A stretch of 64,000 nt of DNA from Leptonema illini DSM 21528. Lineage in GTDB: Bacteria > Spirochaetota > Leptospiria > Leptospirales > Leptonemataceae. This document shows positions 52,571 through 55,484 of the stretch, one piece after another. The notes beneath the pieces were generated by a model, which made no database searches, was not told the DNA's origin, and saw nothing but the letters and a program-made list of their open reading frames with translations. The stretch is taken from assembly GCF_000243335.1 (NCBI RefSeq), contig NZ_JH597773.1, positions 2,535,684-2,599,683 of the forward strand, read 5' to 3'. Position 1 is the stretch's first letter; each line of letters starts with the position of its first letter. The position numbers and the translations under genes were made by a program.

Positions 52571-52978
52571 TCAGTTCAGTCCTTTTTCCTTCATGAGGCC
52601 GACGTAGTCGCGATCGGTTTTCATGATATGATGCAGCAGCCAGCGCTTCAAGAAATCGAGAACCTCGTCGGTGCGTTCTGCATCGCCAAGCGTCGTATTT
52701 AGATAGAGAACACGCAACCTGTCAGAGAAGCCGTCGTGCACGCGGCGATGTTCGGCAAGGCCTTCGTATCCACAGCGTTCCATGTACTGCTCTTCGGTTT
52801 TGAAGTGGTAGTCGGTGTAATCAACGAGGTCTTCGATGATCTGCTCGAATTTGCGGGCAGCCGCTCCCGATGCTTTCAGATGAATGACTTCGTTCAAAAT
52901 ATCGACAAGTTTACGATGCTGTTCGTCGATTTCCTTTATACCGAGCTCGTAGCCGGACTCCCATTTTACAAGTTCCAT
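52571..52978 (-). CDS. Bacteriohemerythrin
   Basis: 135 residues, a stand-alone hemerythrin with a complete di-iron ligand set: His21 (DEQHRKL), His58 and Glu62 (HFKTEEQYM), His77 and His81 (HRRVH), His117 and Asp122 (HIMKTDRDY). It binds O2 and may supply or buffer oxygen, or sense it. It has its own promoter region on the minus strand with a structured element upstream. Confidence 0.95.
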   Translation of the reverse strand: MELVKWESGYELGIKEIDEQHRKLVDILNEVIHLKASGAAARKFEQIIEDLVDYTDYHFKTEEQYMERCGYEGLAEHRRVHDGFSDRLRVLYLNTTLGDAERTDEVLDFLKRWLLHHIMKTDRDYVGLMKEKGLN

Positions 52979-53168: not shown

Positions 53169-55484
53169 ATGGGAGTGATGCGCTCTCTTCTCATCACCCA
53201 GTGTCTGCAACGCGACTTCGTCGAACCCATCAATCGTTATGATCCTCTGCCCAACCAGCTTCATGTGGGAGCGGCCGAATCGCTGCGGCTGCTCGGCGAG
53301 CGCCCTGACGAAGGTCCGCTGCGACGATTCATGCAGTGGGCCCTTGCAAACTCATCTATGCCGATCATTCATATCAGAGACTGGCATGATGCAGACGACG
53401 AGCAGCAGCGAGAGCATCTTTCTCAGTTCGGTCCTCACTGTCTCAAGAATACCCCCGGAGCGTCCTTTCTCTATGCCGCCGATATGGCTGCCGATCAACG
53501 GCATCTCATCGTTGACGCCTCTGGCCTGAACGACTTTTACAAGACCGATCTGGAATCGATGCTTGCTCCATACCGCGGCTCTGCGCTTCACATCGGCTTG
53601 ATCGGAGTCTGGACGGATGCAAAGATTCTCTTTCTCGCTTATGAGCTGACGACGCGATACCCCGAGTTTGAGATCGCCGTATGCGAGGCTTTGACGGCCA
53701 GCTCCTCACGCTCCATGCATTTTATCGCTCTCGAACAGATGCGAAGCACACTCGGCGTCTCGATCATCTCATCGATCGGCGACTTCTCTTCTTACCTCAC
53801 CGGCGAAACCGTCGACCTTCCCATTCCACGAAGCGCCCTTGTGAACACAGAGAAACTCAAATTCGAAGACGATTATACGCCGGCCGATGAAGATCGCGAT
53901 ATGCTTCTTTTTCTATTTCGAGATACACCCGAGGTGCATCTGAAGAAGCTGGCCGGAGGTTTTTCGGGCAATATGGTTCTTCGGGCACGCGTGCGCGATA
54001 TCTACGGGCATCGGCTACCGCCCTTTGTGGTTAAACTCGGTGAGCGATCGTTGATCGCAAAAGAGAAGGCCGCCTTCGAACGCATTCAGGAGGCCCTGGG
54101 TAACGCAGCGCCCTCTATCATCGATACGGTCGAATTAAAGGATCGAGGCGCAGTCAAATACCGCTACGCGGCCATGCAGGGCGAGCAGACGACGACGTTT
54201 AAGAAATTCTACGCATCGACGGATAACACCGACCGGATCGGCGAGGTGCTTGCAGCCGTATTCGACGATCGCCTCGGTCGATTTTATGAAGCGGCGGTCT
54301 CGGAGCCTCTCAATCTGCTTGATTATTATGATTTCCAACCGCGCTTCGCCGATGGCATACGAAAGCGCGTCAATGAGCTGCTGCCCGGCGCACCGGCCGA
54401 TACGATTGAGGTCATTCCCGGAAAGACGCTGCGACATCCTGCCCTGTTCTACGAGAAGGATCTGACCGAACTGCGCGGACATGATACGCGCGAACACTTT
54501 ACCGGATGGGTTCACGGAGATCTGAACGGAGCCAATATCGTTCTCGATTCGTCGCAGAACGTCTGGATCATCGACTTCTTTCACACGCATCGCGGGCACA
54601 TTCTTCGCGATCTTATAAAGCTCGAAAACGACCTTCTCTATATCTTTACTGAATTGAAAGATGAAGGAGAACTGAGGCAGGCCATCGCCCTCACCGATCA
54701 TCTCTTCTCGTATGAAGATGCGGCGGCCGTACCGGATGCGCTGCCCGGATTGCCTCCGGCCCTTGAAAAAGCCCAGCAGACGATCCGACATCTGCGATCC
54801 CGCTATGCCCGCCTCGTGCAGCATGATCGCGATCCATATCAGATGGATTGCGCCATGGCCCGGTATGCCATTCATACCCTTGCTTTTGATGAATCGTCCG
54901 TTTTTCAGAAGCGCTGGGCGTTGTACGCCGCCTCGCTCTTTTTGCAGCGCATACGCTATCGCCTGATTGAAACGCGAGGCCTGCGCGTCGATTTTCTCAA
55001 ACGAGAGACGTCGGCCTCTCTGATCGGCATCACATTGCTTCCCGGCCGTCGTGATCGTCAGCGCGATCTCGAACAGGATCTGTCACAATTAAAAGAACAG
55101 CGCATCGGTTCTGTGCTCTGTCTGCTCTCTGATAACGAATTTGAGTTATACGGGGTGCCTGATCTTCTTACAAGATATGCTGATTGCAGCTTCACGATTA
55201 TGCATGCGCCTGTTGTTGATCAGGCCATTCCCTCCTTTGAAGAGATGGATGCCATGCTTGCCTTTGTCGACTCATCGCTTGCCGAACAGCGACGCATTCT
55301 CGTGCACTGTGCCGGCGGTCTCGGTCGCTCGGGAACGGTCGCCGCATGCTATCTGACGACCCGTGACGGGCTGTCCGTCGATGAGGCCATCGACGTCGTG
55401 CGCGAATCTCGCTCTCCGCGCATGGTTGAGAACCGTCGCCAGGAGGACTTTGTGAGACAGTACACGGAACGATCAGCTCGCTGA
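53169..55484 (+). CDS. Three-domain protein: isochorismatase-like, APH-like kinase, CDKN3-like phosphatase
   Basis: 771 residues, no signal peptide. Residues 1-215 have an isochorismatase/cysteine-hydrolase layout (LLITQCLQRDFVEP; IIHIRDWHD; IGVWTDAKI), but the catalytic Asp is replaced near Gln11 and the Cys after TD is Lys, so this part looks inactive. Residues ~240-600 resemble an APH/choline-kinase fold: Lys289 (VVKLG), His449-Gly-Asp451, Asn456 (GANIVLD), Asp469 (IDF). Residues ~610-771 are a dual-specificity phosphatase of CDKN3 type with Asp684 (PVVDQAIPS) and Cys714/Arg720 in HCAGGLGRSG. The middle may match the 'ternary complex associated domain 9' group. No partner gene is adjacent; it overlaps the convergent SulP gene by 12 nt. 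Confidence 0.8.
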   Translation: MGVMRSLLITQCLQRDFVEPINRYDPLPNQLHVGAAESLRLLGERPDEGPLRRFMQWALANSSMPIIHIRDWHDADDEQQREHLSQFGPHCLKNTPGASFLYAADMAADQRHLIVDASGLNDFYKTDLESMLAPYRGSALHIGLIGVWTDAKILFLAYELTTRYPEFEIAVCEALTASSSRSMHFIALEQMRSTLGVSIISSIGDFSSYLTGETVDLPIPRSALVNTEKLKFEDDYTPADEDRDMLLFLFRDTPEVHLKKLAGGFSGNMVLRARVRDIYGHRLPPFVVKLGERSLIAKEKAAFERIQEALGNAAPSIIDTVELKDRGAVKYRYAAMQGEQTTTFKKFYASTDNTDRIGEVLAAVFDDRLGRFYEAAVSEPLNLLDYYDFQPRFADGIRKRVNELLPGAPADTIEVIPGKTLRHPALFYEKDLTELRGHDTREHFTGWVHGDLNGANIVLDSSQNVWIIDFFHTHRGHILRDLIKLENDLLYIFTELKDEGELRQAIALTDHLFSYEDAAAVPDALPGLPPALEKAQQTIRHLRSRYARLVQHDRDPYQMDCAMARYAIHTLAFDESSVFQKRWALYAASLFLQRIRYRLIETRGLRVDFLKRETSASLIGITLLPGRRDRQRDLEQDLSQLKEQRIGSVLCLLSDNEFELYGVPDLLTRYADCSFTIMHAPVVDQAIPSFEEMDAMLAFVDSSLAEQRRILVHCAGGLGRSGTVAACYLTTRDGLSVDEAIDVVRESRSPRMVENRRQEDFVRQYTERSAR

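Follow-up and report, generated by a model that had tools for sequence, protein, structure and literature searches.

A spirochete fusion of an altered nicotinamidase domain, an APH-fold kinase and a KAP-like phosphatase, a candidate metabolite-controlled phosphorylation switch

Leptonema illini (genome of 4,522,760 bases in 3 contigs) encodes a single polypeptide in which a nicotinamidase-fold domain with a replaced catalytic triad, an APH-fold kinase and a KAP/CDKN3-like phosphatase follow one another. Shared with 26 species besides L. illini, the same three-domain architecture is present in 27 of the 393 genomes of the phylum that were searched, including 24 of the 48 genomes of the class. 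The protein is compact and apparently transferable, combines kinase, phosphatase and putative sensor in one chain, and offers a good candidate for a phosphorylation switch that is self-contained and under metabolite control.

RESULTS

One gene encodes three domains in a single chain

The gene lies in a 64,000-nt stretch of DNA that was analysed as a whole (the window), and opens with an ATG. Its features, in window coordinates, are the following.

53169..55484 (+), complete fusion gene, Isochorismatase-like / TCAD9-APH kinase / KAP-like phosphatase, 771 residues (ORF, Pfam, full-length homologs)
53178..53804 (+), domain 1, residues 4-212, nicotinamidase fold with triad replaced and metal ligands kept (Pfam, structure match, alignments)
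53202..53204 (+), Cys12, at the triad Asp position, invariant in 26 homologs
53379..53387 (+), Asp71-Trp72-His73, nicotinamidase metal-ligand motif DxH (alignment; ligand roles from PMC3025910, PMC3581539)
53436..53438 (+), His90, third metal ligand, at the position of PncA His71 (alignment)
53517..53519 (+), Ala117, at the triad Lys position, Ser in one homolog (alignment)
53622..53624 (+), Lys152, replacing the nucleophilic Cys, invariant (alignment)
53805..53933 (+), linker, residues 213-255, poorly conserved (3 of 43 columns invariant)
53934..54983 (+), domain 2, residues 256-605, TCAD9/APH-fold kinase (Pfam; Foldseek to APH(3') and APH(4))
54984..55481 (+), domain 3, residues 606-771, KAP/CDKN3-like dual-specificity phosphatase (Pfam; KAP structure match)

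The initial annotation had proposed a 771-residue fusion of three domains, and Pfam places all three, in that order and with significant matches: Isochorismatase (residues 56-195, E 9.6e-10), TCAD9 (two stretches, one at residues 409-571, E 7.9e-84) with APH (residues 279-486, E 1.5e-6), and CDKN3 and DSPc (residues 611-765, E 3.9e-16). All three Pfam domains are present in five further members scanned; in the most diverged member scanned (locus L102 of genome G285), the Isochorismatase match falls under the Pfam cut-off. Full-length homologs are 45-52% identical to the L. illini protein and cover about residues 4-768. Because the homologs align from residue 4-5, the ATG at 53178 is an equally possible start. 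The predicted structure of the full chain has a pTM of 0.69.

The fusion gene stands alone in the window. Directly upstream is an ORF at 52571-52978 (-) that looks hemerythrin-like from HxxxE/H motifs picked out by eye, and downstream is a convergent ORF, overlapping by 12 bases, that reads as a probable SulP-type transporter. Across 21 fusion loci, no neighbour family common to more than 5 was found, and the recurrent families mostly represent genus-level synteny, for which reason the neighbourhood, or an operon, was rejected as a pointer to the substrate. The absence of conserved neighbours at the 21 loci suggests that control and effector parts are probably both contained in the fusion itself.

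Domain 1 keeps the predicted nicotinamidase metal site and has a replaced triad

The model of domain 1 (AlphaFold2, mean pLDDT 82.8) superimposes on PncA of B. subtilis with Z 19.6 and an rmsd of 2.2 over 175 aligned residues, and domain 1, by this match and by Pfam, has the Isochorismatase superfamily fold. The nicotinamidases of B. subtilis and S. pneumoniae both align at Z 19.6 (rmsd 2.1-2.3, 174-180 aligned residues) and other superfamily members at Z 19.2 and below, a preference of the model for nicotinamidases that is consistent but narrow.

Column alignment with the phylum's own canonical members shows that the Asp-Lys-Cys catalytic triad is absent from domain 1. Specifically, Asp is replaced by Cys12, Lys by Ala117 and Cys by Lys152, so that not only the catalytic Asp and Cys, whose loss had been noted at the outset, but also the third triad residue is gone. 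The replacements are themselves conserved, with Cys12 and Lys152 invariant in 26 of 26 homologs and Ala117 in 25 (Ser in the other one), and the surrounding TQCLQxDF, GVWT(E/D)AK and SSSR motifs are almost fixed. In one homolog, domain 1 carries an in-frame insertion that falls between positions 133 and 139 (G033:C2:98581-98666).

Asp71, His73 and His90 are invariant in 26 sequences, occupy the metal-ligand motifs of the nicotinamidase subgroup, Asp-x-His and the His of (W/F)xxHC, and align with Asp52, His54 and His71, the metal ligands of PhPncA (PMC3025910); they are predicted to form a metal site. Phe17 and Phe87, invariant in an alignment of 22, match by motif the substrate-binding residues Phe13 and Trp68 of MtPncA (PMC3025910, PMC3581539). 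In the alignment of 22, mean pairwise identity is 61% for domain 1, 54% for the kinase and 45% for the phosphatase; that domain 1 is the most conserved of the three fits a selected binding site and not decay. The early suggestion of a dead hydrolase as a possible sensor is strengthened by the retained metal and aromatic pocket and by a triad fixed in another form, while the sensing itself is something we infer. Domain 1 would be a ligand-binding sensor of the nicotinamide/nicotinate type or, less likely, a remodelled enzyme.

The invariant Cys12 and Lys152 could instead constitute a new catalytic pair beside the metal, in which case domain 1 would be an enzyme and the chain might act in three steps on one metabolite, transforming, phosphorylating and dephosphorylating it. 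The fixation of residues 12, 117 and 152 and of the motifs around them agrees with such remodelling, as does a conservation of domain 1 above that of the intact phosphatase, but binding-only sites may be equally conserved, all three residues of the triad by which catalysis in the Isochorismatase fold is defined are lost, and the literature searched showed no earlier case of a Cys/Lys swap in it. We consider a three-step enzyme unlikely.

In eight genomes (Turneriella parva, G032, and G003, G005, G015, G026, G029, G041 and G045), no Isochorismatase-family match other than the fusion was obtained, and no separate nicotinamidase of this family was detected in them. A tie between the fusion and canonical PncA was rejected, since T. 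parva and several others carry the fusion only. Outside the fusion, domain 1 was found in none of 150 relatives (E<=1e-6), apart from two weak matches to distant ordinary members.

Kinase and phosphatase motifs are complete in every homolog

Domain 2 has the hallmarks of an APH/TCAD9 kinase, including the invariant Lys, the HGD...N motif and the metal Asp: a GG(F/Y)SGN loop, Lys289, Glu304, HGDLNG-x-N at 449-456 and Asp469. Lys289, Glu304, Asp451, Asn456 and Asp469 are invariant in 26 of 26 homologs; in the alignment of 22, H449-G450-D451 is invariant and the GG(F/Y)SGN loop shows small changes. The HGD and Asn residues first described are present, at 449-451 and 456, as is Asp469, but the metal motif is not of the DxD type, reading ID469FFHTH. 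The strongest family match is to TCAD9, with the middle of the model (about 170-264) unmatched, and Foldseek matches domain 2 to the aminoglycoside phosphotransferases APH(3') and APH(4) with E about 1e-6.

The structure closest to domain 3 is human KAP/CDKN3 (1fpz; Z 26.6, rmsd 1.6, 169 aligned residues, 27% identity). As in phosphatases of the DSP/KAP type, an HC(X5)R loop (713-720, including H713) is accompanied by a general acid, Asp684, and all 26 sequences carry the residues first singled out, Asp684, Cys714 and Arg720. Active-site motifs for both activities are complete in every homolog, which supports the pairing of a kinase with a phosphatase in one protein.

Related CDKN3-like domains occur in plasmid-encoded proteins annotated as ADP-ribosylglycohydrolase (matches H2, NZ_CP109792.1, and H4, NZ_CP020471.1), and domain 3 also matches the Pfam PTP-NADK family, contexts hinting at a wider tie of such phosphatases to NAD chemistry. 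In genome G043, a 73-residue open frame beside the fusion gene (G043:C82:24252-24404) is 51% identical to residues 713-763 and appears to duplicate part of the phosphatase end.

With both activities in one chain, the kinase might autophosphorylate the chain and the phosphatase reset it, so that the protein would work as a timer or memory switch and pass its signal to partners via domain 1. The intact motifs of both are in keeping with this, and KAP itself dephosphorylates a kinase (KAP-phosphoCDK2 complex, 1fq1; Z 25.7 to domain 3), but the resemblance to KAP is at the level of the fold, and the main linker (residues 213-255), in which only D242, L246 and L249 are invariant in the alignment, contains no invariant Ser, Thr or Tyr, so that a conserved phosphate acceptor beyond the folded domains is not obvious. 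Action in cis therefore seems to us quite unlikely.

The fusion is patchily distributed and may occasionally be transferred

Besides the members of the class, among them T. parva, three fusion-bearing genomes (G068, G187 and G285) fall in other families of the phylum. The distribution is patchy, yet it takes in half of the class and is mostly stable within genera. The tree of fusion homologs disagrees with family labels (f1 does not form a single clade) and groups G068 (35% G+C) with G022 (34% G+C) at a support of 0.955; the mismatch and this grouping suggest occasional transfer of the whole gene. In the plasmid and phage collections searched, the fusion was not found and only the phosphatase domain gave matches, and a scan of viral contigs for the fusion returned nothing.

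Matches from Vibrio were rejected as relatives of the fusion, because the similarity, among the matches listed, is confined to the region of the kinase HGD motif; the contig scan that yielded them used single-sequence patterns and sampled phyla beyond Spirochaetota thinly. An ORF from these matches (L032) contains no fusion and reads as a possible Kdo-kinase-like protein.

Elsewhere in the phylum, TCAD9 occurs in large AAA, TPR or nSTAND1-WD40 proteins (L095:3237-7829, L096:1-3888, L097:420-3158 and L099:1306-7410, the last with TCAD9 assigned by genome search), a setting that recalls, by analogy, ternary conflict systems (PMC10910872, PMC7159879). In those systems, Kaur et al. 2020 describe active APH kinases only as rare effectors (PMC7159879). 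The fusion could be a defence protein lying at the margin of the ternary systems that carry TCAD9, its pseudo-nicotinamidase sensing NAD breakdown under attack. Such a role would suit the strong TCAD9 match, the company of the other TCAD9 proteins, the patchy distribution and the one likely transfer between low-G+C genomes, but the best PADLOC match has an E of only 0.047, on which defence-system membership was rejected; furthermore, the finding of no neighbour family at more than 5 of 21 loci speaks, as far as family sharing shows, against fixed partners such as the MoxR AAA, vWA and VMAP genes of a vWA-MoxR-VMAP ternary system, and carriage by half of the class, mostly stably within genera, also speaks against it. 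We regard a defence function as improbable.

That the architecture stems from a merger in sequencing or assembly, or from three adjacent genes without relation to each other, is next to impossible, since domain order and spacing are the same in 27 independently assembled genomes including T. parva, the frames are open through all three domains, and the sole broken copy among the 27 (G019) is split by contig ends. The anticipated recurrence in further genomes was thus obtained, the parts were not seen as sequencing-merged neighbours, and no genuine split or stand-alone version of the fusion was found in the genomes searched.

DISCUSSION

A ligand-controlled kinase-phosphatase

We tentatively favour, as the leading reading, a stand-alone, cytosolic, ligand-controlled bifunctional kinase-phosphatase, a reading favoured by the fixed domain order in 27 genomes and the lack of a genuine split. 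The N-terminal domain would descend from a nicotinamidase, would have lost amide hydrolysis while retaining the metal and aromatic pocket, and would bind a pyridine carboxamide or carboxylate, or a similar small ligand; Lys152, at the former nucleophile site, could pair with a carboxylate. The APH-fold kinase would move phosphate from ATP onto a substrate, the KAP-like phosphatase at the C-terminal end would take it off, and ligand occupancy would tip the balance of the two, presumably allosterically. The output would be a phosphorylation level set by one polypeptide, following the logic of PFK-2/FBPase-2 or AceK.

Opposition of kinase and phosphatase on one substrate, the 'self-contained phospho-switch' of the initial annotation, is likewise something we infer, and, since APH-fold kinases often act on small molecules and KAP-like phosphatases on proteins, a shared substrate may fail. 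Rather doubtful is the most specific version, an as yet undescribed class of single-gene phospho-switch in bacteria in which the nicotinamidase pocket, its catalysis retired, responds to a metabolite of the vitamin B3 type, and with it to NAD turnover, and sets the kinase/phosphatase balance on one target. If the nicotinamide-site reading is true, phosphorylation in spirochetes would be coupled through the fusion to vitamin B3/NAD status, and the fusion would clearly exemplify the conversion of a metabolic enzyme into a sensor with its replacement residues fixed.

Comparison with known systems

The literature searched, covering TCAD9, isochorismatase-phosphatase fusions and isochorismatase pseudoenzymes, yielded no account of this protein or its function. 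Neither the three-domain architecture nor a nicotinamidase-like domain in which Cys and Lys stand as invariant replacements appears to have been described.

Domain 1 shares with PncA the fold, the Asp-x-His...His metal ligands, the aromatic residues Phe17 and Phe87 and the Gly ahead of the cis-peptide position; it differs from PncA in the three triad residues, in having Trp148 at the oxyanion/cis-peptide position and in being found only as part of the fusion. Domain 2 has the kinase lobes, Lys289, HGDxxxxN motif and Asp469 of TCAD9 (PF19974) and APH (PF01636) but, unlike the AAA, STAND-WD40 and TPR proteins that contain TCAD9, is part of a three-part fusion with no conserved partner genes nearby. 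Domain 3 has the fold, HC(X5)R loop, acid Asp684 and Gln758 in common with KAP/CDKN3 and with the archaeal-type DSPs TkPTP and SsoPTP but, unlike these, is joined to a kinase and a pseudo-nicotinamidase.

Bifunctional kinase-phosphatases with opposing activities under ligand control include PFK-2/FBPase-2, AceK and HPr kinase/phosphorylase. Opposing activities in one polypeptide and control by a ligand are, by analogy, proposed for the fusion as well; the fusion is built from a combination of domains unrelated to theirs. The concept of a bifunctional kinase-phosphatase is already known, whereas the combination of domains appears to be new.
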